From: Sciurus carolinensis
Lineage: Eukaryota; Chordata; Mammalia; Rodentia; Sciuridae
Reading direction: 5' to 3'
Length of the DNA stretch: 64,000 nt
Assembly (NCBI RefSeq): GCF_902686445.1
Contig: NC_062224.1
Location: 51,335,156 to 51,399,155, forward strand
The notes under the pieces are model-generated. The model was given only the letters and a program-made list of their open reading frames with translations. It did no database searches and was not told the origin of the DNA. Positions 3,001 to 64,000 of the stretch are shown in pieces (within the stretch, counting starts at the first letter, position 1; each line of letters starts with the position of its first letter). Both the position numbers and the translations under genes were made by a program.

Positions 3001-3511
3001 AATCAAAACTACCCTAAGATTTCATCTCACCCCAATTAGAATGGCGATTATCAAGAATACAAGCAACAATAGGTGTTGGCGAGGATGTGGTGAAAAAGGA
3101 ACACTCATACATTGCTGGTGGGGTTGCAAATTAGTGCAGCCACTCTGGAACGCAGTGTGGAGATTCCTCAGAAAGCTTGGAATGGAAACACCATTTGACC
3201 CAGCTATCCCACTCCTTGGCCTATACCCAAAGGACTTAAAAGCAGCATACTACAGAGATACAGCCACATCAATGTTCATTGCTGCTCAATTCACCATAGG
3301 CAGAGTGTGGAACCAACCTAGATGCCCTTCAGTTGATGAATGGATAAAGAAACTGTGGCATATTTATACAATGGAATATTACTCCGCAATGAAGAATGAT
3401 AAAATTATGGCATTTGTAGGCAAATGGTCGAAATTGGAGAATATCATGCTAAGTGAGATAAGCCAATCTCAAAAAACTAAAGGCCGAATGATCTCGCTGA
3501 TAAGCGGATGA
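3..3511 (+). pseudogene. L1 ORF2 (endonuclease C-terminus, reverse transcriptase), one frameshift
   Basis: ORF2 encodes the endonuclease/reverse transcriptase that carries out target-primed reverse transcription. The frame is open from base 3. It shows the endonuclease GDFN motif near 117-128 and the SDHN motif near 367-378. At about 785-797 an A-run is one base short compared with the expected frame, so translation stops at 797. The downstream frame is then open to the natural stop at 3511 (739 codons from the first internal ATG at 1292). It includes the RT catalytic FADD motif near 1786-1797 and the C-terminal cysteine-rich segment near 3080-3130. Of the four L1s here, A has the cleanest RT and C-terminal frame. 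The frameshift alone makes full-length ORF2p impossible. Lesions outside the window cannot be judged. Confidence 0.93.
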
Positions 3512-13441: not shown

Positions 13442-13687
13442 GATGAGCTATCCAGGGATCTCACCTGCAGCAGGGCTAAGGTGGAAGCAGTGATTATTAT
13501 TCCTTTCCATGTTCCTCCTACTTATTTCTCTGCCTCCCTCTCACAAATATGTATCTGCAACCTAGCCCCTATATACAGTATCTGAAGTAGTAACATGATT
13601 GAAATCTTCTTCCAGTACAATAATTTTCTGATTTCTCTTAGAAGTGCCAATGAAAAGTCATCCTCAACACTAAAGATCAAAAATTTA

Positions 13688-20899: not shown

Positions 20900-21033
20900 C
20901 CTCTGGTAAACCCCCCACTTATTAATATTAATTTCTTTCTTTTTGAGACAGCTAGGATCCTGCCTGGGGTGCCACGTACCCCTTGGTAGAGAAGGCCAAG
21001 AAGGGAGAGGCAGGGATTGACAGAACAGCTACA

Positions 21034-21810
21034 ATGGGAGGTAGTGAAAGCAAAGAAAGAGCATTATTTATTGGTATTGCTAAGCACTTATTAACTAAAA
21101 GAGAAACTCATGTAGGAACAACTCAATTAAAAAGATTTTTTCATTTTGTGCAAGAATGTGCCCCTTGGTTTCCTGAACAGGGTTCTTTAGATGTTAAAAC
21201 CTGGAAAAAGATAGGCGATGCTATGCATGTGCATCATAGATTATATGGAAATAAAAGAGTGCCCACCGACGCTTTTGCATTGTGGAATCTTTTTAGGGAC
21301 TGTTTAGACCCTAGACATGATAATGAGCAGCTAAGTAAAAGGGTAAGATCACCAGATGAAATGTCAGAAAAGGAGCCTTTGCTGACAGCCTTAGTTAAAA
21401 AATATATAGAGGAAATTCAGGTGAAAGTGAAAGTGAATCAGATGATGATGAAGATGGGAAAAAGAAGAAAGGTCTGCCTGATCAGCTCTCCCCATCTGAT
21501 GAGGAGGACTTGGAAGAAGCCGCTTTCAGATATCATAATGAGGATCCACCTTTGGTGGCTCCTGTTGTGCCATCCCTTCCTAAACCCCCAGATAAAATAA
21601 AAAGGAAAGTCCAAAAGGTAGGATTTCTAGGTGCTGTTAGTGAGGCACAAAAACTGGGAGATGTTAGTATTTGTTGCCTTATAGCATGGGCTATAGATGA
21701 GGGAGGAGAGCCTCATTGGGAGCCTCTCTCTCTTTTAAAATGTTAAAAGAACTAAAAGCAGCTGTAAAAGATTTAGGACCTACTTCCCCTTATACTCTGC
21801 AGCTAGTGGA
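21034..21810 (+). pseudogene. Gag (matrix and start of capsid), frameshifted and truncated
   Basis: The ATG at 21,034 opens a matrix domain beginning MGGSES (myristoylation signal), with the CPWFP-like 'APWFPEQG' motif of betaretroviral matrix. The frame is shifted near 21,420. An acidic Ser/Asp/Glu-rich linker and a proline-rich segment continue in another frame to about 21,746. A third stretch after about 21,737 carries capsid-like text (GPTSPYTL motif). The rest of capsid and all of nucleocapsid are missing: gag is joined directly to RT at about 21,810-21,825. It cannot assemble particles. Confidence 0.85.
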
Positions 21811-24060
21811 GAATGTCATTCTCCTGTGGCTGTCCCTAAAGGCTATCATATTTTAGTCATTGATTTACAAGATTGCTTCTTTACTATTCCTTTAGCTAAA
21901 CTAGATAGATGGCGTTTTGCTTTTATTTTACCATTGCCTAAATTACAAAGGCCTTATCAAAGATTTCAATGGAAAGTATTACCTCAAGGAATGAAAAATA
22001 GTCCTACATTATGTCAAAAGTTTGTAGATCAAGCCTTAATTAATTGTAGACAAAAGTATCCAAACTGCTATATGATTCACTATATGGATGATATATTGAT
22101 TGCACATTCTCAAAGCCATTTGTTACAAATAATATTACAGGATTTAATTAAAGATTTACAGAGGTGGGGTCTGATAGTAGTTCCTGAAAAAATTCAACAG
22201 GAACCTCCTTATAATTATCTAGGAAGAACTATAAAAACAGATTGTGTCAGCTCTCAAAAGTTACAAATTCAAAAAGACAAACTATTAACATTAAATGATT
22301 TTCAAAAATTATTGGGAAATATAAATTGGATTAGACCTTATTTAAAACTCACAATTAATGATTCAAAACCTTTGTTTGAAATATTAAAGGGTGATTCAGA
22401 TCCTAACTCAAGTAGAATATTAACTAAAGAAGGAGAACTAGCCTTACAAGTTGTTGAAACTGCAATTCAAAAACATTAATAGCAACAAGTTAATTATAAC
22501 TTGCCTTGGGTTTTTATTGTGCTAAAACAAAACATACTCCAACAGGTTGTTTATGGCAAAATGATCTACTTGAATGTATACACTTACCAGTATCAGGAAA
22601 GATAATATTAATGTCTTATCCTACTATGGTAGCTTCTTTGGTATTAAAGGCCAGATTTAGAAGTAAAGAATTGTTTGCTTCTGAAATGCATGAAATAATT
22701 ATTCCTTACACAAGAGAACAATTTGACCAATTATTACAAATTGATGATCAATGGACTATTGCATTTCTAAATTTTACAGGAAAAATTTCTTTCCACTTGC
22801 CCAATAATCCTTTACTACATTTTTTACTTCAAACAGAAATATTTCCTAAATGGTGCTCCTCAATTCCAATTAACAATGCTATGTTAATATTTACAGATGT
22901 GTCATCAAATGGAAAAGCAGTTATAATAATTAATTCTCAACCCACAGTTCAATGGACACAAGAAACTTCTGCACAAAGAACTGAATTAGAAGCAGTCATC
23001 TATGCTTTCAAGACTGTTGCTCAACCCTTTAACTTGTACACAGACTCACTATACATTGTTAAACTGTTTCCAACCACAGAAACAGCAATGCTCTCCTTTT
23101 CATCTAAAATTATACATAGGCTACAAGAACTTCAATATCTAATTCATAACAGAACTTCACATTTCTTTATAGGTCATATTCAGGGATGTTCAGGATTACC
23201 TGGTCCCCTTGCTCAGGGGAATACCCATGATGATCACTTAACTAAAATTTTTATTTTAACAGCTATATAAGAAGCTATTATATCACACAAAAATCATCAT
23301 CAAAATTCATCTGCCTTACAAAAGCAATTTCATATTTCTAGAGGAGAAGCTAGAACTATTGTTAAAAATTGTCATGTTTTTCCTAAATTTATTCCTTCTC
23401 CACAGATGGGAGTTAATCTTTGAGGACTTTTACCTAATGTCTTATGGCAAATAGATGTAACTCATATATCAGAATTTGGAAAATTGTCTTATGTTCATGT
23501 TATGGTCGATACCTTTTCTCTTGTTACTGTGGCCTCAGCCAGAACTGGGGAAGTCTACAAGGATGTGAATCAACATTTATTCCGTGTTTATCTGTTTTAG
23601 GAATGCCTAAAAAATTAAAAACTGATAATGCTCCTGCTTATACATCAAAACCATTTATAGATTTCTATTCCAGGTTTAATATATCTCATTCTACAGGAAT
23701 TCCTTATAACCCACAAGGACAAGCAATAGTAAAAAGGAGTCATCAAAAATTAAAAATACAAATAAAAGAGCTAAAAGAGGGAGAGCTTACTCTTCCCCAC
23801 ATCATATTTTACAACATGCTTTATTTGTTTTAAATCATCTAGATACTGACAAAGAGGGAAATACTGCAATAATGAGACATTGGGAAAGTAAAAGGTCAAA
23901 ACAATGTTTAGTAAAATGGAAAAATTATTATCTGGTAAACGGAGAGGACCTGGCATCTTGCTAACATCCAGTCGAGGCTATGCTTGTGTATTTCCACAGG
24001 ATGCAGATACACCTTCATGGATTCCAGACAGATTGATACGTCACTACAATGAGCCTATCC
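21811..24060 (+). pseudogene. Pol remnant: RT (partial), RNase H, integrase with mutated catalytic Glu
   Basis: RT begins mid-domain at VPKGYH and contains the catalytic YMDD (near 22,081-22,092). It hits stops at 22,477-22,482. After a frame change, 22,506-23,270 has the RNase H acidic residues (FTD, TELEA, YTDS and HDD). The integrase N-terminal zinc region lies across stops at 23,268 and about 23,422. The core shows WQID (about 23,450) and TDNAPAYT (about 23,622). The third catalytic residue, expected exactly 35 residues after the second Asp, is Lys (AAA at 23,732-23,734) instead of Glu. The C-terminal '[10 protein letters not shown]' segment lies near 23,972-24,001. Protease is deleted. 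Every enzyme is disabled. Confidence 0.9.
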
Positions 24061-24142
24061 GAAGGAGGAAGCACAAAGAGTATTGGATCCCTTACCAACC
24101 CAATCAGATGGACGAAAATGGACTAGTATTTAAGATGAAAAA

Positions 24143-25955
24143 TTGCGTCTGGCACAAACATCCACAACTCACAACTCAGACCTGCCAACTTGGGGACAAG
24201 TGAAACGCCTGACTGCCACTGCTGAACACATGGTGAACAGCTCTGGAAAATCTAAAACCCCAGAGGCTTTGTTTTTTGCATTGATTGCTCTCATTTCAAC
24301 TCAGGTACTGCCTATTCATGCTTATGATAATGAAGGGAAAGCTTACTGGACCTATTTTCCAAATCCTCCCTATTGAATCCAACTACTTGGAGCAGATGTA
24401 ATATTAAAGTATTTACTAATGAGCCTCAATTACTTGGAGGAATTTCAGATTCTTCAATACCACATAAAATAGCATTTACAATTACATTTCATGGAATTAC
24501 TAAAGAGACACCAATGTGCTTTAATACAGATAATGTACATGTGCCATTGGGATGTCTCCCTTTAGGTTACAGGACTTACATTACTGATTCTTCAGGAGAA
24601 GAAGACAACAAAAGAGATATATGGTCCCTAGAGATAACCTCACTTGGATATGCTAATTATAATGATGCAAATATTTTAGTGGCTTTACCGCCTCCTTTTA
24701 AACTGTGTGAGGATTCTAACAGTCATAAAGACAGTTCATGGAATCTACTCAATTTAGAGACAGATTTCCCAAAATGGTTTGAATGTGGTTTTCATCATAC
24801 TGCACTACAGTTTAAGTCACAAGGCTCTGCTACTACTATTACAGATTATTCTGTGTCTTCTCCTGATTTTGATTATAAACTTTGATTAAAGACAAGACAG
24901 AATAAAATGGTTCATTTTAATTTTAACCCTTTTCTTACCAATAAGTCTATTCATAGATGGTTTACTCCTGGATGGGTAACACCCATCTATCGGAGTGACC
25001 TTATAAATGGTAAATTCTCTTACTTTCCTGACTTGTATAAACTATTAGCAGCTACTAATATAGTATTATTAGAAAGATCTAAGTTAAGTAAACCTAATGA
25101 CTTTACAGTACGTGCTTGTATAAATGCTCCTCATGCTATTCTTATGTCTACCATAAATAATTTCAATATCACTAAAAATAAGGAAGTTTAAAACATTTAT
25201 TGCCATGATTGTGTTCTTACTAACTGTATTAATTCAACCATGTCTAAAGATTTAAGGGTGTTTTTAATTGTACATCAGCCTAATTATGCTATATTGCCAG
25301 TCAATCTTACAGAATCTTGGTATGATGACCCAGGTGTTGAAATTTTAAAAACAGTTAATGAACTTTTAAGACCAAAAAGATTTGTTGCAGCTTTGATCCT
25401 AGGAATAACAGCTTTAATCAGTATAATCACTTCTTCAGCTCTCTTGACCACAGTGTTGTACAGGAAATTCATACTGCTTCACAGGTAAATGATTTATCTC
25501 ATAACGTCTCTGTGGCTTTAGCAGCACAAGAACAAATTGATAAAAAATTAGAAACAAGAATTAATGCTCTTGAAGAAGCTTTTCTCTTTATGGGAAATGA
25601 GATTCAAAATATTCAAACTAGAATGACCACTAGATGTCATGCTAACTTCAAATGGATTTGTATTACTCCCTTAAAGGTTGATAATAATACTAATTGGGAA
25701 AAAGTTAAAACTCACCTTAGAGGAGTTTGGAATAATACTAATATAGCACCAGATATCAATGCTTTACAACTACAAATAAAAATGTTGAGTCAGGCTCATC
25801 TCTCGGTTGTTGCAGCAGATAATTTGATCTCCCAAATGTTTCATAATATAAAAACAACTATATTTAATAGTACATTCCTAAATACAATATTACAATATGG
25901 CTTGATTGGAGTATGTATTTTAATTTTAATTCTTTGTCTTTCAGTCATCCTCTGA
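24143..25955 (+). pseudogene. Betaretrovirus/HML-like env, frameshifts and stops
   Basis: The leader frame (24,143-24,376) has an [10 protein letters not shown] motif and a hydrophobic signal segment (FFALIALIS), overlapping the end of pol. A frame change occurs near 24,373. The surface subunit then runs with in-frame stops at 24,883 and 25,189, and N-glycosylation sites are present. A furin-type RPKR site (near 25,369-25,380) precedes a hydrophobic fusion peptide (FVAALILGITALISI). A second frameshift lies near 25,450-25,500. The TM subunit (25,512-25,955) has a heptad-rich segment, glycosylation sites and a C-terminal anchor (YGLIGVCILILILCLSVIL). There are at least four inactivating lesions. 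Whether it is close to the squirrel syncytin-Mar1 cannot be decided by eye. Confidence 0.87.
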
Positions 25956-37188: not shown

Positions 37189-40100
37189 ACTGTTTCTTTA
37201 TCCATTTATCAATTGAAGGACATCTAAGTTGGTTCCACAATCTGGCTATTGTGAATTGAGCAGCTATGAACATTGATGTGGTTGTATCTCTGTAGTATGC
37301 TTATTTTAAGTCCTTTGGGTATAGGCCAAGGAGTAAGATAGCTGGGTCAAATGATGGTTCCATTCCAAGTTCTAAGGAATCTCCACACTGCTTTCCAGAG
37401 TGGCTGCACTAATTTGCAGTCCCACCAGCAATGTATGAGTGTACATTTTTCCCCACATCCTTGCCTACAACTATTATTGCTAGTATTCTTGATAATCGCT
37501 ATTCTAATTGGGGTGAGATGGAATCTTAGGGTAGTTTTGATTTGCATTTCTCTTATTACTAGAGATGTTGAACATTTTTTCATATATTTTTGATTGCATG
37601 TAATTCTTTTTCTGTGAAGTGTCTGTTCATTTTCTTAGTTCATTTGTTGATTGGGTTATTTGTATTCTTGGTGTAGAGATTTTTGAGTTCTTTATATATT
37701 CTGGAAATTAGTGCTTTATCTGAAGTATGAGTGGCAAAGATTTTTTTCCACTTTGTTAGTTCTCTCTTTGCATTGCTGATAGTTTCCTTTGCTGAGAAAA
37801 AGCTATTTAGTTTGAATCTGTCCCAGTTATTGATGCTTGCTTTTATTTCTTGTGCTATGGGAGTCCTGTTAAGGAAGTCTGATCCTAAGCAAACATGTTG
37901 AAGATTTGGACCTACATTTTCTTCTATAAGATGAAGGGGCTCTGGTCTGATTTCAAGGTCCTTGATCCATTTTGAGTTGATTTGTGTGCAAGGTGAGTGA
38001 TAGGGGTTTAGTTTCATTCTGTTGCATATGGATTTCCAGGTTTCCCAGCACCATTTGTTGAAGAGGCTATCTTTTCTCAATTGCATATTTTTGTCCACTT
38101 TGTCTAGTATGAGAAAATTGTATTTATTTTGGTTTGTGTCCATGTGCTCTATTCTGTATTTTTGATCTACCTGTCTAATTTGGTAACAATACCATGCCAT
38201 TTTTGTTAATATTGCTTTGTAGAATAGTTGAATTTCTGGTATTGTGGTACACCCTGCTTCACTCTTCCTGCTAAGAATTGCTTTATGTAGTCTGGGTTTC
38301 TTATTCTTCCAGATGATTTTCATGATTGCTTTATCTATTTCTGTAATGTACATCATTGGGATATTAATTGGATTTGCATTGAATCTGTATAGCACTTTTG
38401 GTAGTATGTCCATTTTGACAATATTAGTTCTGCCTATCCAAGAACATGAGAGATCTTTCCAGATTCTAAGGTTTTCTTTAATTTATTTCTTTAGTGTTCT
38501 GTAGTTATCATTGTAGAGGTCTTTCCCCTCTTTTGTTAGATTGATTCCCAAGTATTTTTTTTTTCAAAGCTATTGTGAATGGGGTAGTTTTCCTAACTTC
38601 TCTTTCTGAAGATTCATCACTTATGTATAAAAATGCAATGGATTCGTGAGCATTGATCTTATATCCTGCTACTTCACTGAATTCATTTACGAGTTTTAAA
38701 AGTTTTCTGGTGAAATTTCCTGATTCCTCTAAATATATAATCATGTCATCAGCAAATAGGAATACTTTGAGTTCTTCTTTTCCTATTCATATTCCTTTAA
38801 TTTTCATGGTCGTTAAATTGCTCTGGCTAGTTTCCAGGACAATGTTGAATAGAAGTAGTGAAAGAGGGTTCCCTGCCTTGTTCCAGTTTTTAGGGGGAAT
38901 GCTTTCAGTTTTTCACCTTTTAGAATGATATTGGCCATGGGCTTAACATATATGACCTTTACAGTGTTAAGGAATGTTTCCACTATCCCTATTTTTTCTA
39001 ATGTTTTGAGCATAAAGGAATGCTGTATTTCATCAAATGCTTTTTCTGCATCTATTGAAATAATCATGTGATTCTTGACCTTAAGTCTGTTGAAATGGTG
39101 AATGATATTTATTGATTTCCAAATGTTGAACCAACCTTGTATCCCTGGGATAAAACCCACTTGATCGTGGTGCACTATCTTTCTAATATATTTTTGTATG
39201 TGTTTTGCTAAAATTTTGTTGAGAATTTTTACATCAAGGTTAACTAAGGATATTGGTCTGAAATTTTCTTTCCTTGATATGTCTCTGTCTGCTTTAGGTA
39301 TCAGGGTGATACTGGCTTCATAGAATGAGTTTGGATGGGTTCCTTCCTCTTCTAATTCATTAAATAGTTCAAGAAATATTGGAATGAGCTCTTCTTTAAA
39401 GGTTTTGTAGAACTCAGTTGAGAACACATCTGGTCCTGGATTTTTCTTTGTTTGTAGGGTTTTGATGACTTCTTTTATTTCATTACTTGAATTAGATCTA
39501 TTTTAATCTTGTATTCCTCCTCGCTCAGTTTAGGTAATTCATATGTCACTAGAAACCTGTTAATGCATTTGAGAATTTCTATTTTGTTGTATATATTTTC
39601 AAAATAGCTTCTGATTATGTTTTGCATTTCATTCTTGTCTGTTGTGATATTTCCTTGTTCATTCCGAATTTTAGTAATTTGTGTTATCTCTCCCCATCTC
39701 TTTGTTAGCATTCCTAAGGGTTTATCAATTTGGCTTATTTTTTCAAAGAACCAACTATTTAATTTGTCAATTTTTTCTATTGTTTCTTTTGTTTCAACTT
39801 CGTTGATTTCAGCTCTGTTTTTAACCATTTCCTGTCTTCTACTACTTTTGGTGTTTCTTCTTTTTCAAGGGCTTTGAGCTGTAGTGTTAGGTCATTTATT
39901 TGTTGATTTTTTCTTCTTTTATTGAATGTACTCCATGAAATAAATTTTCCTCTAAGTATTGCTTTCATAGTGTCCCAGAGATTTTGATATGTTGTTTCTT
40001 TAATCTCACTTACCTCTAAGAATTTTTTAAGTTCATTTCTGATATCTTCTGTTATCTATTCATCATACAACAGTATATTAATTATTCTCCAGGTGTTGGA

Positions 40101-49998: not shown

Positions 49999-52900
49999 AT
50001 GTCAAAAACAAATATGAGTCAATTGACTGGGAATACAAATCATATCACAATAATAACCCTGAATGTTAATGGCCTGAACTCATCAATCAAAAGACACAGA
50101 CTGGCAGATTGAATTAAAAAGAAAAATCCAACAATATGCTGTCTGCAAGAGACTCATCTCATAGAAAGAGACACCCATAGACTAAAGGTGAAAGGATGGG
50201 GAAAAACATACCATGCACACGGACACAGCAAAAAAGCTGGAGTATCCATCCTCATTTCAGATAATGTGGACTTCAAACCAAAACTAGTCAGAAGGGATAA
50301 AGAAGGACATTACATGCTGCTTAAGGGAAGCATAAATCAGCAAGACATAACAATCATAAATATCTATGCCCCAAACATTGGCTCATCCACATATGTCAAA
50401 CAAGTCCTTCTCAATTCCAGAAATCAAATAGACCACAACACAATAATACTAGGCGATTTTAACATACCTCTCTCACCACTGGATAGATCGTCCAAACAAA
50501 AATTGAATAAAGAAACTATAGATCTCAACAACACAATCAACAACTTAGACTTAACGGACATATATAGAATATACCATCCAACAAAGAACGAATACACTTT
50601 CTTCTAAGCAGCACATGGATCCTTCTCTAAAATAGACCATATTTTATGCCACAAAGCTACTGTTAGCAAATACAAGAAGATAGAGATACTACCTTGTACT
50701 CTATCAGATCATAATGGATTGAAATTAGAAATAAATGACAGAATAAAAAACAGAAACTTCTCCAATACCTGGAGATTAAATAATACACTATTATATGATG
50801 AATGGATAACAGAAGACATCAGGAGGGAAATAAAAAAATTCTTAGAAGTAAACGAGAACAAAGACACATCATATCAAAATCTCTGGGACACTATGAAAGC
50901 AGTACTTAGAGGAAGATTTATTTCATGGGGCGCATTCAAAAAAAGAAGTAGAAATCAACAAATAAACGACTTAACACTGCAGCTCAAAGTGCTAGAAAAA
51001 GAAGAGCAGACCAATACCAAAAATAGTAGAAGACAGGAAATAGTTAAAATCAGAGCCAAAATCAACGAAATCGAAACAAAAGAAACAATTGGAAAAATTA
51101 ACAAAATAAACAGGTGGTTCTTGAAAAAATAAATAAAATTGATAAACCCTTAGCCACACTAACAAAGAGAAAGAGGGAGAAAACTCAAATTACTACAATT
51201 CTGAATGAACAAGGAAACATCACAACAGACACGAGTGAAATACAAAACATAATTAGAAGCTATTTCAAAAATCTATACTCCAACAAAATAGAAAACCTCG
51301 AAGACATCAACAAATTTCTAGAGACATATGAATTACCTAAACTGAACGAGGAGGACATACACAACTTAAATAAACCAATTTCAAGCAATGAAATAGAAGA
51401 GGTCATCAAAAGCCTACCAACAAAGAAAAGTCCAGGACCAGATGGGTTCTCAGCCGAGTTCTACAAAACCTTTAAAGAAGACCTCATTCCAATACTCCTC
51501 AAACTATTCCTTGAAATAGAAGAGGAGGGAACCCTCCCAAACTCGTTCTATGAAGCCAATATCACCCTGATACCTAAACCAGACAGAGACACATCAAGGA
51601 AAGAAAATTTCAGACCAATATCCTTAATGAACATCGATGCAAAAATTCTCAACAAAATTTTAGCAAATCACATACAAATACATATTAAAAAGATAGTGCA
51701 CCACGATCAAGTGGGTTTTATCCCAGGGATGCAAGGTTGGTTCAACATTCGGAAATCAATAAATGTCAATCACCATATCAACAGACTTAAAGTTAAGAAT
51801 CACATGATTATTTCAATAGATGCAGAAAAAGCATTCAATAAAATACAGCATCCCTTCATGCTCAAAACACTAGAAAAAATTGGGGTAGTGGGAACATTAC
51901 TTAACATTATAAAGGCCATCTACGCTAAGCCCATGTCTAATATCATTCTAAATGGTGAAAAACTGAAAGCGTTCCCTCTCAAAACTGGAACAAGGCAGGA
52001 ATGCCCTCTTTCACCACTTCTATTCAACATCGTCCTTGAGACTCTAGCCAAAGCAATTAGACAAACCAAAGAAATTAAAGGGATACGAATAGGAAAAGAA
52101 GAACTCAAACTATCCCTGCTCACTGATGACATGATTATATATTTAGAGGAACCTGGAAATTCCACCAGAAAACTTTTAGAACTCATAAGTGAATTCAGTA
52201 AAGTAGCAGGTTACAAGATCAATGCTCATAAATCCAATGCATTTTTATACATAAGTGATGAATCTTCAGAAAGAGAAATTAGGAAAACTACCCCATTCAC
52301 AATAGCATCAGAAAAAATAAAATACTTGGGGATCAATCTCACAAAAGAGGTGAAAGACCTCTACAATGAGAACTACAGAACACTAAAGAAAGAAATTAAA
52401 GAAAACCTTAGAAGATGGAAAGATTTCCCATGTTCCTGGATAGGCAGAATTAATATTGTCAAAATAGCTATACTACCTAAAGTGCTATACAGATTCAATG
52501 CAATTCCAATTAAAATCCCAATGATGTACCTTGCAGAAATAGAGCAAGCAATTATGAAATTCATCTGGAAGAATAAAAAACCTAGAATAGCTAAAGCAAT
52601 CCTCAGTAGCAAGAGCGAAGCAGGGGGTATTGCAATACCAGATCTTCAACTCTACTACAAAGCAATAGTAACAAAAACGGCATGGTATTGGTACCAAAAT
52701 AGACAGGTAGATCAATGATACAGAATAGAGGACATGGACACAAACCCAAATAAATACAATTTTCTCATAGTAGACAAAGGTTCCAAAAATATGCAATGGA
52801 AAAATGATAGCCTCTTCAACAAATGGTGCTGGGAAAACTGGAAAACCATATGCAATAGAATGAAATTAAACCCCTATCTCTCACTCTACACAAAACTCAA

Positions 52901-53843
52901 CTCAAAATGGATCAAGGAACTCGGAATCAGACCAGAGACCCTGTATCTTATAGAAGAAAAAGTAGGTCCAAATCTTCAACTTGTTGGCTTAGGATCAGAC
53001 TTCCTTAACAGGACTCCCATAGCACAAGAAATAAAAGCAAGAATCAACAACTGGGATAGATTCAAACTAAAATACTTTCTCTCAGCAAAGGAAACTATCA
53101 GCAATGTGAAGAGAGAGCCTACAGAGTGGGAGAATATCTTTGCCAACCATACTTCAGATAGAGCGCTAATTTCCAGAATCTATAAAGAACTCAAAAAACT
53201 CTACACGAAGAATACAAATAATCCAATCAACAAATGGGCTAAGGAAATGAACAGACACTTCACAGAAGAAGATGTACAAGTAATCAACAGATATATGAAA
53301 AAATGTTCAACATCCCTAGTAATAAGGGAAATGCAAATCAAAACTACCCTAAGATTTCATCTCACCCCAATTAGAATGGCGATTATCAAGAATACAAGCA
53401 ACAATAGGTGTTGGTGAGGATGTGGTGTAAAAGGAACACTCATACATTGGTGGGGTTGCAAATTAGTGCAGCCACTCTGGAAAGCAGTGTGGAGATTCCT
53501 CAGAAAGCTTGTAATGGAAACACCATTTGACCCAGCTATCCCACTCCTTGGCCTATACCCAAAGGATTTAGAATCAGCATACTACAGAGATACAGCCACA
53601 TCATTGTTCATTGCTGCTCAATTCACCATAGCCAGATTGTTGAACCAACCTAGATGCCCTTCAGTTGATGAATGGATAAAGAAACTGTGGCATATATATA
53701 CAATGGAATATTACTCCGCAATGAAGAATGATAAAATTATGGCATTTACAAGCAAATGAATGAAATTGGAGAATATCATGCTAAATGAGATAAGCCAATC
53801 TCAAAAAACTAAAGGACGAATGATCTCGCTGATAAGCGGATGA
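49999..53843 (+). pseudogene. L1 ORF2, several nonsense mutations and one frameshift
   Basis: The start is the ATG at 49,999, 31 bases after the ORF1 stop. In-frame stops are TGA at 50,110 (a former Trp codon by comparison), TAA at 50,605, TGA at 52,716, TGA at 53,415 and TGA at 53,757. One base is missing near 51,121, shifting the frame. The endonuclease SDHN motif (near 50,704-50,718) is kept. The RT catalytic motif reads LTDD (near 52,119-52,130) where copy A has FADD, so two positions before the catalytic Asp pair are changed. The natural stop is at 53,841-53,843. Confidence 0.92.
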
Positions 53844-55432: not shown

Positions 55433-55974
55433 AGGAAGCAGGATTCACTGGTGGTAACCGGAAATAGCAAAACTGTAGAATGTGAGCTGAGACAAACTTC
55501 AAGGAGAAACTTGCTTCTATCATCACATCAAGAAATGTAAATTGTATAAAAAGAAATTCTTTTAAAATAAAATCATAAAGAACGAAAGAGATAAAAAAGG
55601 AACTGTGTAAATATTTACTGAGAGATAAAAGATGTAAATACAGATATATAGCATATTTGAAATGGTTAGCCTAAACAAGACAATAGTGGTTATCACCATA
55701 TTAATTTTAATATTTTATATAACCAAAATCAAATACCAAGATTATTTTTCCAAAAACAATAAAATGCCTAAAACTCACTTAGAATAATAAACAAAAAAAT
55801 CTCCAAAATTATTCTCAAATAAGAGTACATGCTCTTCAACTAACTATGAGATTATGTATTGATAAATCCCTTGTAAGATGAAAATAACATTAAGTTGAAA
55901 ATGTACTTAAATGTACCTAACTCACTGAATATCACAGTTTACCAACACAGAACTCTAGCTAGACTTCTCTGAGT
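55433..55974. other. AT-rich sequence, nothing recognised
   Basis: Unique AT-rich sequence between the solitary LTR and the right-hand provirus. Confidence 0.5.
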
Positions 55975-56214
55975 TGCCAATCAGAGGACGACGAGACGTA
56001 CGGGATTGAGGACACGATCACACGGAGATGGCAAACCAACGAATGGTTTATTTTATGATGCTCTCACACACAGGGGGGCACGCCAGCCTGCTTAATAACC
56101 TGACCGTGACCGTGCGCAGACGGTTGCGGAGCAGGTATAGCCCCAGGCAGGGTTACAATCCGGGGTTTTTATATGTTTCACACAGGGCATATCTTATCTA
56201 CCACACACAGCTTA

Positions 56215-56350
56215 GTACTTTATCTAGTCCTACAGCTTAGGGTTGCCTAATTTGCATAATTAGTATCAGTGCACTCCTCTTAGTACTTTATCTAGTCTTA
56301 CAGCTTAGGGTTACCTAATTTGCATAATTAGTATCAGTGTACTCCTCTTA
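56215..56350. repeat. U3 tandem repeat, family 1 (68 bp x 2)
   Basis: Two 68-base units start at 56,215 and 56,283. Each contains ATTTGCAT (the octamer motif read on this strand) inside TAATTTGCATAATTAG, a small palindrome-like core. Such duplications in a retroviral U3 usually act as enhancers. Confidence 0.85.
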
Positions 56351-56600
56351 GTCTGAGCTTAGAGAGCTCTTGTTTTACATTTGCAAAGTACTCCTCTTAG
56401 TCTGAGCTTAGAGAGCTCTTGTTTTACATTTGCAAAGCACTCCTCCTGGCCTGAGCTTTAGAGAGCTCTTGTTTTACATTTACAAAGCACTCCTCCTGGC
56501 CTGAGCTTTAGAGAGCTCTTGTTTTACATTTACAAAGCACTCCTCCTGGCCTGAGCTCAGAGAGCTCTTATTTTACATTTATAAAGCTTTGTTTTACATT
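56351..56600. repeat. U3 tandem repeat, family 2 (49-50 bp x 5)
   Basis: Units begin at 56,351, 56,400, 56,449, 56,499 and 56,549. The first four are full; the last runs into a shorter diverged copy. The repeated core is CTGAGCTTAGAGAGCTCTTG, which contains the palindrome AGAGAGCTCT. The units differ by few bases, so the array is recent. Confidence 0.9.
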
Positions 56601-56923
56601 TATAAATCTTTGCTCCATTCAGTCCGTCCCCTGGAGCGGGGGCGACCCCCAAGGAGGGGCGTCGCCGCTCCACACAAATGTACCAGGTCTCCAACATAAC
56701 AATATTTGGTAAGGAGATGGAGGAGGTTTTCATGGCCTGGCAGGTTAAGTACATAGAAGGGGAGTGTTTTATTGCAAAATTTATAGAGGAAAACCTGGTG
56801 GCTATCGGGGAGGACAGAAGGAGGAAGACGATTAAGATCAAAAACAGAGCCGTCGATGGCGATGAATTTGGGGCTTGAAGACCGGGGGAGGCCCACCACA
56901 TAGCGCCAGAAGAGGTGTTCCAT
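56600..56923 (-). CDS. Candidate small accessory protein, 107 aa, function unknown
   Basis: A frame from a true ATG at 56,923 (MEHLFWRYVVGLP) ends at 56,600, overlapping the presumed start of U3. Its composition is protein-like (mixed hydrophobic and charged residues, four Cys). I do not recognise a family. It lies 42 bases after the end of the 243-codon frame. It also sits directly behind a strong polypyrimidine-AG candidate splice acceptor (56,965-56,990), so it could be the coding exon of a spliced transcript. A frame reaching into U3 next to the LTR is a known retroviral layout. It is short enough to be chance. Confidence 0.35.
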   Translation of the reverse strand: MEHLFWRYVVGLPRSSSPKFIAIDGSVFDLNRLPPSVLPDSHQVFLYKFCNKTLPFYVLNLPGHENLLHLLTKYCYVGDLVHLCGAATPLLGGRPRSRGRTEWSKDL

Positions 56924-56964
56924 GAGTGTGTCCCTGAGGAATAGACGAAGGTACGTAGATAGTA

Positions 56965-56992
56965 CTAAAGAAGAGAGAAAGAGAGAGAGTTA
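56965..56992 (-). promoter_or_regulatory. Candidate 3' splice acceptor
   Basis: On the minus strand, AACTCTCTCTCTTTCTCTC continues into TTCTTTAG, a near-uninterrupted pyrimidine tract ending in AG at 56,965-56,966. It is one of the best acceptor-like tracts in the provirus and precedes the ATG at 56,923 by about 40 bases. The TAG is also the stop of the upstream frame. Confidence 0.5.
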
Positions 56993-57696
56993 AATGGAGG
57001 AATAGGGTCCGTGCGAGAGGATAGAAGAGGAGGTAAAGTATAATGTAAGTAGACATACTTAGTAAGCCTAATAAGATAGGGTCGCATGATGGCTTTAAGA
57101 GCCAAGAAAGAAAGGGGGTGTATAACAGACTTATTTCTGAAAGATAAAAGAGAAAGAAAGAAATTCATAGTATGAGGCTGAAAAGAATGTTCCAAGGCCA
57201 AGAACCAGTCACATGCTTTTATACTAGGGGCATCAGGATTATTCAAAGAAGCAAATAGAAGACCTAAAAGGGCTTGGTTATGGTAAGGGAACTTAATATA
57301 ATAACAATCAGCAAGCAAAAGGGAAGGTGGATGTTTATGAAACCAAAGATGGTTGAGAATCATATATGGGGAAGGAAGGGGCGAGAAAACATAAGGGTTA
57401 TGAGGTTGTTGGCAAACATAAGAGCAAAGGTTGCATGGTAACAATGTTGGAGTTAAGCTTTTAACAATATGTGATAACATATCAAAGGAGTAGGTGGTAT
57501 AAGTTTTCAGAGCTGCAAGTTTGAAAAAGTCATATACATGGAATTGGATGCATAGTGGACAGGAAGCATGATGGATGCGTTCCAGTTCAAATATGCGTGC
57601 TCTTTCCAGGCGTCTGATATGTCTATGGCGGTTGTGGCATCTCCGGCGGTAGGTAATGCCGGGGGTTGTACAGTTCGGCCTTGCGAAGTTCATCAT
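56965..57696 (-). CDS. Candidate accessory protein overlapping env 3' end, 243 aa
   Basis: The first ATG pair is at 57,696/57,693, inside the last 74 bases of env in a different frame. The frame stays open to the TAG at 56,965 and is also open upstream, to about 57,756. The N-terminus is Arg/His-rich (YRRRCHNRHRHIRRLERAR), resembling a nuclear-localisation or RNA-binding patch. CPLC and CNLCSYVC follow about 47 residues apart, a possible zinc-binding pair. The rest is Leu/Phe/His-rich. I recognise no family. In foamy viruses the transactivator frame overlaps the env end in the same way, so position suggests a regulatory protein. That is analogy, not homology. Confidence 0.5.
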   Translation of the reverse strand: MMNFARPNCTTPGITYRRRCHNRHRHIRRLERARIFELERIHHASCPLCIQFHVYDFFKLAALKTYTTYSFDMLSHIVKSLTPTLLPCNLCSYVCQQPHNPYVFSPLPSPYMILNHLWFHKHPPSLLLADCYYIKFPYHNQALLGLLFASLNNPDAPSIKACDWFLALEHSFQPHTMNFFLSLLSFRNKSVIHPLSFLALKAIMRPYLIRLTKYVYLHYTLPPLLSSRTDPIPPFNSLSFSLL

Positions 57697-60600
57697 ACTT
57701 CGAAGAAGTGGTGTTATTGCAGATGCAAAGCAAAATTTTAATGATGAAGAAAGCACCTAAAAGGAAACAAACAACAGTAAATGATTCTTTGAGCCAATGG
57801 AATGGGTTCCATCTGGTAATGCAGGCGAAGTCAGCAGCTATCAGTCTGCGGAAGAAACCAATAAAGGAACAGTCAGTGGTACTGGAAGAAAAGATGTGCG
57901 TTGGGATAAGATAAGAGTTATCCACGAGGGCTTTAACTTTGTTCAAAGAATAATCCAGGTGACGGAGATCCTTAGCAATAGAGTCATTGAATGCTTTGTA
58001 TACTTTCTCATTTTGTTCATATACTCTGTTCAAAGCAGAGATGGAGGACTGAAGTTTCTGCATCAAATCTTGTTGATAAGCCGGCGTCCTGAAGAAAATT
58101 CCAAGTCCAAAGGTGTGGTTGGAGATGATGGAAACATGAGTGGTTGTAGCTTTGTTAAGGTCATTATGAAGCACACGGATGACGTTGGAAGATAGGTGGC
58201 ACCCAGGATCCAGGTAGACTGTATCATTATAGGTAACATTCTGCCATCGGGTGATAGAGTAATTGGAGTGATGACAGGTGAGAATCCTGTAATTTCCCAA
58301 ATCAGCAATGGATGAAGCAGGAAGATGTACTACAACGTCCGTAGTAGGAGGTTTATCAGAAATAACCTGAAAGGTCAAAGCCGTTTGTTTTCCAAGGTGC
58401 CAAACTGAGGAAGAAGGAATAAACCAAGAATGTTTGTCAAGTTGAGCCCAATACATGTCTTCCAAAGGGAGAACCCATGAGTCATGAATTCTCCGAGGTG
58501 TAGGTTTAGTTTTGTAAGCCACAATAGCAGTAGAAGTAGAGATTTCCCAAAGATGTAAAGAGCAACGTCCAGAGTCGCAGTGGCTTTCTTTGGTAGGGTC
58601 CAGTATGGTTATCATTGATGCGGTTTCTTGTCCAATTCCCGTGATGAAGAGTGTGCGTAGATCAGTGAAAGATGCCTGAAGCAATGCTTCCACGTGATGG
58701 CATTCCTGTTGTTGTTGGAGGTGAGTTATAGCAGCTTGCATCATGTTAGTAGTAGTAGTATAAGATTGTTGGAGGGAACGGAGTTCAGAATGTAAGACCT
58801 GTTGTTCAGCCTGGAGTTTCTGTAGCAAGACGCTCATAGTATGCATATTTCTGGAAATTCCATGTATGATTCTTGTGTGTTGATTGGTGAGCGCTCTAAC
58901 GGAGTTGATTTCAGCTCTAAGTTCTTCAGTCATAGCTGCAGCAATTAAAGCTCCAATAGCGGCGCCAGCCAAGAAGGCGCCGACAGCAGCCGCCTGTAGA
59001 GGGCGTCTGAGGTTCATACCACCATTAGGACTATAATATAAGTCAGGAAGAATGGTAGCTACAGAGGTTTTACAAGGTTCCATATTAGACGCGAATTCAT
59101 GAAGGTCTAGGATTAGGTGTATGGGAGTGATAGAGGGTTGGAGAAGCAAGTGAGTAGGAGCATACAGAAGAGGTAAGTACATAGGAGCAGTATGGGTAAC
59201 GGGTAGGTCATGTGGTGGAAACAAAACAGATCTGGGGAAATGGGCTGTAATCCATGAGTGGGTCTCATTAAAACCACCCCGATGAATAAGACAAGGTTCA
59301 AAATCGGTAGTTCTATAACACATCTTATGATCCATCTTAACTTCATAAATCTCAGAAAATCTGTAATTATCAACCAAGTCTGTTTTGTTCTTAAGGATAG
59401 AATGGGAGATCATATCATACATATACCATTTGTTATTTTGCCCTGGGGCTACCATGTAAAAATAGTAAGGTAAATAGCCAATTTTGCGTGGTGAGGGCCA
59501 TTTAGAAAAGTCCATACCAGCATGGAGCCACCAATTAATGGATCTATTGTCAGCTGCGGCGATATGGTATCGGGGAATAGAGTGAGAAATGGATAGATTA
59601 GAACAACCATAGGGGGTACTGTGATAAGGTGTAAGAGGAAAAGGACGTTGGTCCAGATGGAGAGTTACTTCCTGGATACAGGGGTATTTGTAATTTAAAA
59701 TGGTAACGGTAGGTTTCAATTGTAGCAGGGTGGAACGTTCTGGGTAGTAAGTGGAATTAACAACAGAGGCATTAAAAACATCCATGGGTACATCATAGAA
59801 AGAATGGTTATACATAATAGATCGCTGGGTCACATAGAGAAGCTTGGTAGCAAGGGGACACCAATGACATCGCTTGAGGCCTGATTGAGGAATGTACGGC
59901 AAACCCAGGGTATCATTGTGCACATTGATAGGTAAAGGGGGCATGCAAGGAATGTCCATATAATGTACCATAGAAGCAAGTGAGGGGTCAGAAATATTAA
60001 TAATAGGGAAGAATTCAGGAAAGAATCTGGTAGTAGAGGAAGTGCCGGTAGCACCACGAAGGGAAGGGCGCATATAAGAATCTGGTCTATAAAGGGAAAT
60101 GTTAAAAGAGCGCGGCGAAGGTTTTGAAGAAACATTAAGAGGCAGAAAGAAAACAGGGGATTTAGTGGCATAATAGGGGAGTAGGTTCATTGTAGAACTA
60201 TTAAAAGTACTGGAGTTAAAGAGGTAAATATGAGAAAGGTTCCATATAGGAATGCTGTTATGTAACTCCTGGGAATCATTCTTCCATACCCAACGTAGAC
60301 GCCTCATAGAGGAGGCATTATTGTTATGGGAGTTGCTATAAGAGTAATAATCTGGTTCAGTATGGAGTGACTTATTGTAGAATGTAATATCAGAATATTC
60401 TGAGTAAAGGACAACACCATCAGTGGAGTTGCCAGCATAAACAAAACCTGTGACGTTGAGGTATTTAAGCAAGAATGAATTGGCAGGAGTCACATATGAT
60501 TTGGGCATAGTAATAGGTTTAGGAGAATTCTGAAGAAAGATGGAGATAGATAGTTCCTGGTAAGGGGGAATGGGGAAACAGAACCAGCCTAGTTCAGCTG

Positions 60601-61960
60601 ATCCATTGTGAAGCGGTACCATAGTAGCAAAAACAGCACGGATACAGAACATTTTGTAAGGGGAAAAGTGGTTTTGGAAAGATGTAGGAGGGAGAGTACT
60701 GGGTGCCAAAAGGTTAGCAAAAGGTTGAGGGACAGGGTCAGTAATGACCACTGGGTATCTCCAGGTTTGAGTACCTAAAGCCATAATTTCCCACCATTGA
60801 TCAACCGGTGGGAAGGAAATATTGGAGACAATGTAACGACTATGAGCATTGAGGAGTTCAAAGCGGCCAAAGATAGGTAGATTGGGAAAATCTGCTACAC
60901 AGGTAACTTTTGCTTTCAATAATCCACCCTTAAGTTCATTAACATCATTAGAGGCATTAAAGGGTAAGTTCAATCTTTTAAAAAGAAGGGAAATATTAAC
61001 AGGGCACAGATTTCCAAAAGGTTCTGGAAGAAAGGGAGGCCATCTAAAAGAAGGAGTGCAATATTGTATAGAGGTGCCTGTATTGCATAAATTATAAGGT
61101 TTCCTGGTGGTGGTAGAAGGAGGTGCGGTAGTTGTGAGAGTTGTTGATGTTGTAGAATTTGTGGGAACCTCATCCTTAGAGTCATCCTCTTCCTCATCCT
61201 CATAATTATAATCCCCGTATTCCTCATAATACTCATCATACCAAGGGTTACCTTTAGGGCCCTCATTTTCCCATAAGGCTAACATGCGGGCGAAGAGAGA
61301 TAATTTCGCCGCCGCATAGCAGGTGAAAGGGGGATCTGTATCTAAAGCATAGGTGATAGTAATGTTGTGGTTTTCAAACTTAACAGCTATAGGAAAATGT
61401 TGCAGGCCAAGCTGTTGAAAATGATAAATATAATGAGGTGAATGAGCCCAGACAGTTTTAACCAATTCCATATGATGGCAACATAAAGGGTTAGATTCCA
61501 AAATATTAGAATCATCCCAAGCGTATTGAACATCCGTAGAATGCCAAACAGGGCTAAAAAGGCCTGTAATGTTGGCTTTATGATATTCTTCACAAGGGAG
61601 AACAGAATCGTGAGAAAAGTGTTGAAGCCTATGGGTGCAAAAGGCATATTTAGTCCAAAACAATTGCTGGGCAGCAGTGTAATTATTAAGAAAAAGCTGG
61701 GAGAGCCAAAAGTGAGGAACTATGGAATCATTTTTATGTAGGGAAATGTATCCTTTGACAAAGGATCGAAATGATGCTGCATGGGCTTGGGTCCAGGTTG
61801 ACAGATTAACTGAATACCATGGAGTAGTAGGAACAGTGCTGACAGGAGAAGTGTCAGTCCCAATAGTAGCTCCATTTGGGCTACTGAGGGAGCCAACAAA
61901 TAGTAACGTTAAGGACAACACAAACCCAATACCGGAAGTGGTGGGAGGAGTTAGTATCAT
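57623..61960 (-). CDS. env: Giant retroviral envelope-like glycoprotein, 1,445 aa, intact frame
   Basis: The ATG at 61,960 is the first Met codon of an open frame that extends upstream without Met to about 62,080. In order: a signal-like hydrophobic core (GIGFVLSLTLLFVGS, residues about 11-25); a very long surface region with about 30 N-X-S/T sites; an acidic Tyr-rich patch (241-263) followed by a Ser/Thr-rich mucin-like stretch (268-285); and a weak dibasic site (NLRR, about 983-986). A hydrophobic Ala/Gly-rich fusion-peptide candidate follows (988-1010), then a heptad-rich coiled coil (1011-1094). A second helical repeat (about 1300-1350), a membrane anchor (1393-1414) and a 31-residue tail with Tyr/Pro motifs complete it. 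No CX6CC motif is present. Foamy env is just under 1,000 residues and most retroviral env are 500-700. No stop or frameshift is seen. Confidence 0.83.
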   Translation of the reverse strand: MILTPPTTSGIGFVLSLTLLFVGSLSSPNGATIGTDTSPVSTVPTTPWYSVNLSTWTQAHAASFRSFVKGYISLHKNDSIVPHFWLSQLFLNNYTAAQQLFWTKYAFCTHRLQHFSHDSVLPCEEYHKANITGLFSPVWHSTDVQYAWDDSNILESNPLCCHHMELVKTVWAHSPHYIYHFQQLGLQHFPIAVKFENHNITITYALDTDPPFTCYAAAKLSLFARMLALWENEGPKGNPWYDEYYEEYGDYNYEDEEEDDSKDEVPTNSTTSTTLTTTAPPSTTTRKPYNLCNTGTSIQYCTPSFRWPPFLPEPFGNLCPVNISLLFKRLNLPFNASNDVNELKGGLLKAKVTCVADFPNLPIFGRFELLNAHSRYIVSNISFPPVDQWWEIMALGTQTWRYPVVITDPVPQPFANLLAPSTLPPTSFQNHFSPYKMFCIRAVFATMVPLHNGSAELGWFCFPIPPYQELSISIFLQNSPKPITMPKSYVTPANSFLLKYLNVTGFVYAGNSTDGVVLYSEYSDITFYNKSLHTEPDYYSYSNSHNNNASSMRRLRWVWKNDSQELHNSIPIWNLSHIYLFNSSTFNSSTMNLLPYYATKSPVFFLPLNVSSKPSPRSFNISLYRPDSYMRPSLRGATGTSSTTRFFPEFFPIINISDPSLASMVHYMDIPCMPPLPINVHNDTLGLPYIPQSGLKRCHWCPLATKLLYVTQRSIMYNHSFYDVPMDVFNASVVNSTYYPERSTLLQLKPTVTILNYKYPCIQEVTLHLDQRPFPLTPYHSTPYGCSNLSISHSIPRYHIAAADNRSINWWLHAGMDFSKWPSPRKIGYLPYYFYMVAPGQNNKWYMYDMISHSILKNKTDLVDNYRFSEIYEVKMDHKMCYRTTDFEPCLIHRGGFNETHSWITAHFPRSVLFPPHDLPVTHTAPMYLPLLYAPTHLLLQPSITPIHLILDLHEFASNMEPCKTSVATILPDLYYSPNGGMNLRRPLQAAAVGAFLAGAAIGALIAAAMTEELRAEINSVRALTNQHTRIIHGISRNMHTMSVLLQKLQAEQQVLHSELRSLQQSYTTTTNMMQAAITHLQQQQECHHVEALLQASFTDLRTLFITGIGQETASMITILDPTKESHCDSGRCSLHLWEISTSTAIVAYKTKPTPRRIHDSWVLPLEDMYWAQLDKHSWFIPSSSVWHLGKQTALTFQVISDKPPTTDVVVHLPASSIADLGNYRILTCHHSNYSITRWQNVTYNDTVYLDPGCHLSSNVIRVLHNDLNKATTTHVSIISNHTFGLGIFFRTPAYQQDLMQKLQSSISALNRVYEQNEKVYKAFNDSIAKDLRHLDYSLNKVKALVDNSYLIPTHIFSSSTTDCSFIGFFRRLIAADFACITRWNPFHWLKESFTVVCFLLGAFFIIKILLCICNNTTSSKYDELRKAELYNPRHYLPPEMPQPP

Positions 61961-62072
61961 TGCAAGGGGGGCGATGTTCGGTGGTACAAATAGTGAAATG
62001 GGTGACAAGGACCGTAATAAGGTAAAGCAGGCAAAGAGTAAGAGTAGCAGAAATAATTCTAGTGGGGTGCAT
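61881..62072 (-). other. Alternative ATG frame with hydrophobic leader upstream of env
   Basis: From an ATG at 62,072 a 63-codon frame begins MHPTRIISATLTLCLLYLIT, a good signal-anchor pattern, with glycosylation sites, and ends at 61,881. It overlaps the first 27 codons of the env frame in another phase. The env frame itself is hydrophobic and Met-free in 62,080-61,961. Either this is a separate small leader frame, or env starts differently from the ATG at 61,960 (through splicing or a past frame change). Confidence 0.35.
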
Positions 62073-62190
62073 GATCCTAACTATCCTACAATAGTGGGGT
62101 GCGAGGGGCCATAACATAAAAAAGGGGGTACAACAAACCAGAACAGGGAGGCGAAGAGGAGAAGAATGCAAAGAAATGTATACATACAAA

Positions 62191-64000
62191 TTATAAAGGA
62201 GTGATGTCCTTAGCTTTCACGAGGGAAAGTTCTCCCTTAGAGCTGGAAGTCCAATAAGTATTGCCAGGTCCAAAAGCAACAATGTCCTTTTCTTGCAAGG
62301 AAGAGTCTTTGCGGTGTTTATGAAGAACCTTAGAAGACGTCAGAGGCGGTGAGGGGGGTTCAGGAGGGTAAGAAGAAAGGTGTTTGGGGAAGGCTTCGTC
62401 CAAAGGAGAATCTCGATGGAAACGAGGACGAGAATTCAGTTCAAAAAGGGCGATCTGGAGAGCACGGGTGAAAGGTAAGTCCTTGAGGGCAGAAAGGCGC
62501 TGTTTCAGTAGTCCATTAAAGCGTTCGACGTGACCAGCAGCTGTGGGGTTATAAGCAAGGTGGAAGTTCCAAGCGATGTCCAAGTCACTGGCTAGTTTCT
62601 GCACAAGAGTTCCAGTAAAATGTGTGCCTTGATCAGATTCAATCAAAATGGGAGGTCCAAAATGAGAGATCCAATCCCAAAGTGCAAAGATGGTGGCAGC
62701 CTGATTAGGTTTGGCAGAGTCATGAGCCGAAGCAAGTCCTGTAGATACATCCAGAATAACGCAAACAAAACGTTTATTTGAAAGAGGACCAATAAAATCA
62801 ATTTGTAAGGTGTGATTAAAGGATTGGGGTGATGCAGTAGAAGCAGGGGGGTTACGACGAAAACGGGTGAGGGATTGAGGGCAGTGTTGGCAATGTCTGA
62901 CAGCTAGTTTACATTGATGCCAGGTAACGCCCAAATTTCGGTGTGAACACCACTGATAAAGCCCATGAGTACCAATATGTCCCAGAGCGATATGTAACTT
63001 AGTAATCTCGGAGACATGAATAGGCAATTCAGTGGGAGGAGGAGAGACTTTCCAGTCAGGTTTTCTGGTTAATTTTAATTTAGTGTCTCCAATTTGTTCT
63101 GAGGACCAAGGCGTTTTGTTAACCAATTTAAGAGTATAAGATTTAGCGATTTTATCAACAATGTCGTTATTTTTGGAGTGGGCGTCAGTGCGTCCAGTAT
63201 GTGCATCAACATGAGTAATTAGAATGGTAATGTTGGAAGAAGCAAGTTCTTTCCAACAGTCACGACCCCACACTGGCTTGCCATTTATAGTAAAATCAGT
63301 CAAGAGCCATTTAGAGGACCATATTGCTATACCATTGCAAACTGACCATGAATCAGAAAATATGTGAATTACCTTGTGACCTTCATTCACAGAATGTCTG
63401 ACAGCCAAAAGAACTGCTATTAATTCAGCAATTTGGGCTGATTTATCCGTCCCCTGGTCTTCCAGGACACAACCATCCGATGGTCTGAAGGCAGCTGCTT
63501 TCCAATGGACTATAGAGTTAAGTACTGAAGCTGAGCCATCAGTGTACCATACATTGGTGGTGGAGGGGGAATTAGGGCCCCAATGACCGATAGGTTTTAA
63601 CACACGTTCGGGGGGAATGTCGGGGGGTTCTACAAGAGGAGCAGCCGCTATCAGTTCGGAAAGTTTGCCTGGGGAGGAGGAGGATTTAAATTGGCCTTGA
63701 GAGATCAAATTTTGGAGGAACCATTTCCAAGTAAGGACCTTAGGTTCCATAGGGAGTCCTTTGAGGGACTCATCAGGCATTTTAATCCAATCCAGTAGGG
63801 CAACTGGGGTCCTAATCAGGAATTCACGTCTGTGAAGGTCAAAAGTAAAATGTTGTAGTGCGGTCATAAGTGTCCACACATACTTTTCAAATAAAGAATA
63901 TTTATTAGAAGAATAGGGGAAACGTTTGCAATAGAAGCCTACAGGTCTTGAAGTGCCTTCAGACTTAGCAAAAATGCCCCAGGTTCCATAACCATTTAAA
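62191..64000 (-). CDS. pol: Pol, C-terminal part: RT connection, RNase H, integrase (5' end outside window)
   Basis: The frame is open from the window edge; the connection text RPVGFYCKRFPYS lies near 63,910-63,950. RNase H has its four acidic residues: WYTDGS, IAELIAV, FSDSW and the late Asp in NNDIVDK. Integrase has an HHCC zinc finger (HIALGHIGTH, then CQHC). The catalytic core is LQIDFIG, ESDQGTHFTG and VERFNG, with exactly 35 residues between the second Asp and the Glu. The GTHFTG and ERFNGLLK motifs resemble ERV-L integrase. The stop is at 62,191. No dUTPase domain follows, unlike typical ERV-L. It is apparently intact over the visible 603 codons, so the enzyme core could be functional. 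Confidence 0.9.
   Translation of the reverse strand, partial: LNGYGTWGIFAKSEGTSRPVGFYCKRFPYSSNKYSLFEKYVWTLMTALQHFTFDLHRREFLIRTPVALLDWIKMPDESLKGLPMEPKVLTWKWFLQNLISQGQFKSSSSPGKLSELIAAAPLVEPPDIPPERVLKPIGHWGPNSPSTTNVWYTDGSASVLNSIVHWKAAAFRPSDGCVLEDQGTDKSAQIAELIAVLLAVRHSVNEGHKVIHIFSDSWSVCNGIAIWSSKWLLTDFTINGKPVWGRDCWKELASSNITILITHVDAHTGRTDAHSKNNDIVDKIAKSYTLKLVNKTPWSSEQIGDTKLKLTRKPDWKVSPPPTELPIHVSEITKLHIALGHIGTHGLYQWCSHRNLGVTWHQCKLAVRHCQHCPQSLTRFRRNPPASTASPQSFNHTLQIDFIGPLSNKRFVCVILDVSTGLASAHDSAKPNQAATIFALWDWISHFGPPILIESDQGTHFTGTLVQKLASDLDIAWNFHLAYNPTAAGHVERFNGLLKQRLSALKDLPFTRALQIALFELNSRPRFHRDSPLDEAFPKHLSSYPPEPPSPPLTSSKVLHKHRKDSSLQEKDIVAFGPGNTYWTSSSKGELSLVKAKDITPL

Follow-up and report, generated by a model that had tools for sequence, protein, structure and literature searches.

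The 64,000-nucleotide stretch of Sciurus carolinensis DNA analysed here (contig NC_062224.1, positions 51,335,156 to 51,399,155; hereafter the window) encodes a real, spike-sized retroviral envelope protein (Env), and its env gene probably belongs to the 3' half of a complex retrovirus, distantly spuma-like and of a squirrel group, that was inserted recently and has a very long class I Env. The evidence for Env comprises the frame itself, its parts, a protein family and a conserved cysteine frame. The reading frame lies on the minus strand between an intact RNase H-integrase frame and DNA resembling a long terminal repeat (LTR). As the first-pass annotation had reported, it is uninterrupted over 1,445 codons, from the first ATG at 61960 to the stop codon at 57623-57625. 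The stop-free stretch covers 1,485 codons and extends up to 62080, and the true start codon could therefore be elsewhere. In 300 shuffles of the region 57500-62100 that preserved dinucleotide composition, the longest open stretch averaged 122 codons and never exceeded 203.

A homology search with Env residues 940-1445, in which the best 7,999 candidates were scored, revealed four relatives. These are P0003 (1,454 aa, 61% identity in the membrane-proximal, transmembrane (TM) part), P0004 from the ground squirrel Ictidomys tridecemlineatus (1,508 aa, 42%), P0005 from the woodchuck Marmota monax, a marmot (1,524 aa, 39%), and P0006 (1,519 aa, 38%). Over the whole alignment, their identities to the window Env are 61%, 37%, 35% and 34%, respectively. 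All four are uninterrupted as well, and the initial view that so long an open frame calls for explanation is supported. A profile search seeded from the first 500 residues recovered two of the four proteins together with P0007 (1,050 aa, 34% identity), which departs from the other relatives shortly past the cysteine aligned to residue 1133 and ends early. P0007 has 65 member sequences and is perhaps common or transcribed in some host. The hosts of P0004 and P0005 both belong to the Sciuridae, tribe Marmotini, and both proteins are NCBI gene models labelled 'uncharacterized protein' in the database listing. Because P0005 and P0006 are near variants, the family represents about five independent lineages, the window included. 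The related genes in ground squirrel and marmot suggest a little-described retrovirus group. No description of this Env family was found in the Creative Commons-licensed PubMed Central literature, although other journals may hold one, and neither the Env profile nor the RNase H-integrase protein had a relative in the viral contig set.

The relatives differ from the window Env at 39-66% of residues. Twenty cysteine residues are invariant in all five full-length proteins, and 15 of these are also present in P0007, a count that omits the cysteine at 1364, which is aligned only through the frayed end of P0007. The five full-length proteins also have ten N-glycosylation columns in common. Pairwise identity, calculated without P0006 as a close variant of P0005, is 38-71% in the region of the fusion peptide and the first heptad repeat (HR1) and 42-68% in the following 200 residues. 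It is 17-47% in residues 471-690 of the outer, surface (SU) part and 17-59% in the second heptad repeat (HR2), and the signal, acidic linker and tail are also variable. The variable SU centre would fit an exposed surface whose change is driven by immunity or by the receptor, making residues 471-690 a candidate receptor-contact and antibody-facing region. Since frames are still open at 34-61% identity, the frame appears to have been under selection over a long divergence; an unselected 4.3-kb frame would have collected many stops by then. Such selection would most simply have acted in a replicating virus.

The hallmarks of a class I fusion glycoprotein that had been claimed for the frame were all recovered (Table 1). 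Hydropathy analysis places hydrophobic segments at residues 7-29 (signal-like), 987-1014 (fusion-peptide-like) and 1389-1419 (anchor), the last followed by a tail of about 26 residues. The window Env carries 36 NXS/T sequons, whereas shuffled sequences have 13.4 on average and none of 1,000 reaches 36. Its heptad periodicity is reached by one of 1,000 shuffles in HR1 and by none in HR2. Across the family, the corresponding counts per 1,000 shuffles are 1-43 for HR1 (six of six proteins) and 0-4 for HR2 (five of five), whereas 213-976 reach the value of three control regions without heptad periodicity. All six aligned proteins have an RR pair before the Ala/Gly-rich hydrophobic segment, which would mark the SU/TM subunit border. 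Furin cleavage is unlikely there, because none of the six has RXXR at this site and the next residue is proline in five of them. No CX6CC motif occurs in the five full-length proteins, and a gamma-type TM was rejected on this ground. WXXW is absent from the first 60 residues of all six proteins, their start codon being uncertain. The claim that Env exceeds foamy Env by about half also stands: among the lengths listed for comparison, feline foamy Env has 981 aa, and canine coronavirus spike has 1,473 aa.

Table 1. Features of the env-bearing element in the window (window coordinates; all on the minus strand)
Feature	Position	Strand	Basis or remark
3' part of pol: tether-type RNase H-like domain, RNase H, integrase	62191..64000	-	Pfam; open to window edge
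env, open reading frame for giant envelope protein	57623..61960	-	1,445 codons; homologues found
Signal-like hydrophobic segment, residues 7-29	61874..61942	-	hydropathy
Outer (SU-like) part, residues 1-986, ends in RR pair	59003..61960	-	alignment of six proteins
Most variable large SU region, residues 471-690	59891..60550	-	17-47% pairwise identity
Membrane-proximal (TM-like) part, residues 987-1445	57626..59002	-	hydropathy, conservation, helices, fold search
Fusion-peptide-like Ala/Gly-rich hydrophobic segment, residues 987-1011	58928..59002	-	hydropathy, alignment
HR1 heptad-repeat helix, residues 1010-1085	58706..58933	-	heptad periodicity
HR2 heptad-repeat helix, residues 1298-1350	57911..58069	-	heptad periodicity
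Membrane anchor, residues 1389-1419, then short tail	57704..57796	-	hydropathy
acc1, 243-codon frame starting inside env end	56965..57696	-	candidate accessory gene, located where foamy viruses have tas
acc2, 107-codon frame between acc1 and LTR-like region	56600..56923	-	codon score between coding and non-coding
3' LTR-like region	55970..56675	-	putative; both ends approximate
Tandem repeats, 49-50 bp spacing (5 copies) and 68 bp (2 copies), U3-like	56204..56587	-	
TATA-like box	56168..56173	-	one of five TATAAA in 55800-57700
AATAAA polyadenylation signal	56047..56052	-	another AATAAA starts at 56773

The fold of the TM part was approached through a structure model. In a Foldseek search with it, class I viral fusion proteins made up all of the best 50 of 406 PDB matches at E up to 10 (lowest E 5.7e-7), and the matches include the fusion protein (F) of respiratory syncytial virus (RSV) and coronavirus S2. 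The best viral match in BFVD was A0A384ZVF2 (928 aa; 15% identity over 623 columns; E 2.8e-3). Two points weigh against reading the TM part as F-like: the fold match rests on a model of low confidence, and a second structure aligner stays within its noise range on the same model. Of the checks that the first-pass annotation had proposed, structure prediction pointed to class I fusion proteins with these two reservations, and the sequence and profile searches of PDB and Pfam gave no similarity to coronavirus, paramyxovirus or aquatic herpesvirus proteins. Against PDB sequences, Env gave only weak coiled-coil or unrelated matches (E 0.058 to 8.1), both as a single sequence and as a family profile. 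All Pfam matches of the Env proteins fell below the curated cut-offs, the best being to the coiled-coil family Lebercilin (E 0.0045), and no envelope family was matched in the five proteins scanned (P0006 left out). Pfam detects GP41 at E 2.7e-33 in another, broken endogenous retrovirus (ERV) of the window. In function, Env is probably a trimeric class I protein whose core resembles that of F.

Env would assemble as a trimer whose glycosylated outer part, about 985 residues with a variable centre, would bind the receptor. The F-like lower part, consisting of the fusion peptide, a long HR1 helix, a beta domain, HR2 and the anchor, would then refold to merge membranes, in a manner analogous to foamy Env, paramyxovirus F and coronavirus S2. 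Activation by a non-furin protease, or fusion without cleavage, would be likelier than activation by furin. The open state of the frame would reflect both the recent date of the insertion and selection on the parent virus.

Downstream of env, acc1 remains open for 218 codons past the env end, whereas 300 shuffles of this region yielded at most 184. The in-frame codon score of its part outside env is 0.114, which is above all 30 out-of-frame windows (maximum -0.022) and just below the minimum of 15 real coding windows (0.136). One antisense frame of the acc1 region scores 0.124, and this weakens the support from codon usage. A predicted protein with five member sequences, P0008, was the sole match among 593 candidates and differs from acc1 at two of 243 residues. 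The acc1 product is basic (isoelectric point 9.5) with CXXC pairs. At E up to 10, PDB gives no match for acc1 or acc2; Pfam gives none for acc1 and, for acc2, one below the cut-off. Probably, acc1 encodes a regulatory or accessory protein. A further frame of 102 codons (61881-62189, minus strand) lies between pol and env and overlaps the env start in another frame.

A frame overlapping the end of env and a large 3' half are also what a true foamy virus (Spumaretrovirinae) would show if it had been endogenised in a squirrel with its SU enlarged, and the low-confidence fold match of the TM model agrees with this. In foamy viruses, an accessory frame overlaps the end of env, and Env has an RXXR furin site at the SU/TM border and WXXW in its leader; a separate pol mRNA and an internal promoter are further marks of the group. 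Pfam includes a foamy Env family. However, no foamy family appears among the Pfam matches (E up to 10) of the five Env proteins, a test limited by the HMMER filters, and the RR site of the squirrel protein lacks RXXR. The integrase matches that of prototype foamy virus (PFV; 45.7 bits) no better than 7pel_A (49.3 bits), which we take to be the integrase of simian T-lymphotropic virus, or that of human T-lymphotropic virus 2 (46.9 bits); these PDB scores are about equal and therefore do not decide affinity. No foamy Env is among the structure matches listed for the TM model, which carries no weight either way. We consider a true foamy virus unlikely. The basis for the initial description 'foamy-like' is confined to the low-confidence TM fold match and the position of the extra frame.

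The structure matches to RSV F and coronavirus S2 raise another alternative, namely that an env-less ERV-L captured its Env from a virus outside the retroviruses that resembled a coronavirus, a paramyxovirus or an aquatic herpesvirus. The available sections of the Viro3D report (PMC12583693) describe class I glycoproteins of great length in both coronaviruses and aquatic herpesviruses, which would make such a source conceivable. However, foamy Env is reported to share the class I F-like fold (PMC12390576, available sections), so a capture need not be assumed. None of the candidate donor groups showed sequence similarity, and because the gene is common to divergent members, a capture would have to be old. 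This origin seems quite improbable.

The rest of the element bears on its age. Pfam identifies rve (integrase) and RNase_H in the 3' part of pol, and the integrase D, D-35-E triad and the RNase H acidic residues are in place. Reverse transcriptase, pro and gag would lie outside the window, past the pol edge. The LTR-like region is preceded by no purine run of at least nine that would fix its start, and no second LTR copy occurs within the 64-kb window; its partner would lie outside. The observed/expected CpG ratio has a mean of about 0.46 in the 16 blocks of the provirus and of 0.24 in the 12 blocks that flank it, which fits a young insertion. With pol open, its catalytic motifs present and LTR-like DNA adjoining, the provirus as a whole has a young look. 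These findings matter for the possibility that env has been domesticated by its host (syncytin- or restriction-like) and owes its open frame to selection acting on the squirrel rather than on the virus. Open frames in several sources and NCBI gene models in two species are compatible with domestication. On the other hand, the adjoining pol frame is open too, and the 39-66% residue divergence, with the most variable large region in SU, is as would be expected in a virus. Host use is therefore rated as rather improbable. A chance open frame or an assembly artefact can be dismissed almost entirely, as none of the 300 shuffles reaches the open length of env and the existence of a homologous protein family already contradicts chance.

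Elsewhere in the window, the broken ERV mentioned above occupies 20956-25952 on the plus strand, with Gag_p10, reverse transcriptase, RNase H and GP41-type matches in separate frames, and is of class II type. Long open pieces resembling LINE-1 ORF2, identified by eye, lie at 3-3508 (plus), 11866-13447 (minus), 37643-39502 (minus) and 50113-53414 (plus), the longest with 906 codons.

Beyond the reading of the element as a recently inserted complex retrovirus, a wider proposal can be put forward tentatively, and we lean against rather than towards it. The element may stand for a separate complex-retrovirus lineage at the level of genus or subfamily, possibly circulating in squirrels, with a spike-sized Env, an F-like core and an otherwise unknown outer part. 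It might then be a second retroviral branch, beside foamy viruses, with a paramyxovirus-type fusion module, and a missing relative, with env, of the mammalian class III elements that lack it. If this is true, some retroviral envelopes match coronavirus spikes in length, and the F-type fusion module has a greater age or a broader distribution among retroviruses than foamy viruses by themselves would indicate. The window Env and its five relatives offer material on the origin of this module, the ligand of the outer part and the present spread of the group among squirrels.

Among known systems, mammalian ERV-L/MuERV-L, a group marked by a tRNA-Leu primer site, was the one proposed at first pass, and the likeness consists of a putative integrase resemblance noted then. 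ERV-L placement is not supported, because the squirrel element has an env and no dUTPase match follows its integrase (no dUTPase family at the pol 3' end in Pfam, E up to 1 and E up to 0.01); membership was rejected on these features and not on a tree. According to the available sections of PMC8278194 and PMC4299795, integrase is followed by a dUTPase in mammalian ERV-L and env is absent, the latter in agreement with the first-pass annotation. The same sections also describe class III ERVs that have env and others that lack dUTPase, so the squirrel element may hold a wider class III or spuma-related position. The class III element XtERV-S of Xenopus resembles it in bearing env, in being discussed beside ERV-L and in having an SU unrelated to known retroviruses (PMC8278194, available sections). 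However, the Env of XtERV-S is 441 aa long and has a gamma-type TM, and its integrase is followed by a dUTPase-like segment, whereas the squirrel element has a 1,445-aa Env without CX6CC and no dUTPase match. Gunnison's prairie dog retrovirus is likewise a retrovirus of a squirrel relative, but in the available sections of PMC7354474 it is a betaretrovirus whose Env has 605 aa with CX6CC, and a link was rejected on the length of that Env.

Foamy viruses, whose tas and orf-2 are described in the available sections of PMC3814592, have an extra frame between env and the LTR, the place taken here by the candidate gene acc1. Their Env is also long, and the part of its TM ectodomain that lies between the two heptad repeats is F-like, a likeness drawn from the low-confidence fold match. 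The squirrel Env is about 460 residues longer than feline foamy Env, shows no detectable sequence match, and lacks both RXXR at the RR site and the N-terminal WXXW. Coronavirus spike and the F proteins of paramyxoviruses and pneumoviruses differ in that the squirrel Env stands in a retroviral setting, showed no sequence similarity to them in the searches and matches their fold with low confidence; what it has in common with them is a spike-like length and, in the Foldseek matches, a large outer part joined to a fusion part like that of F and S2.
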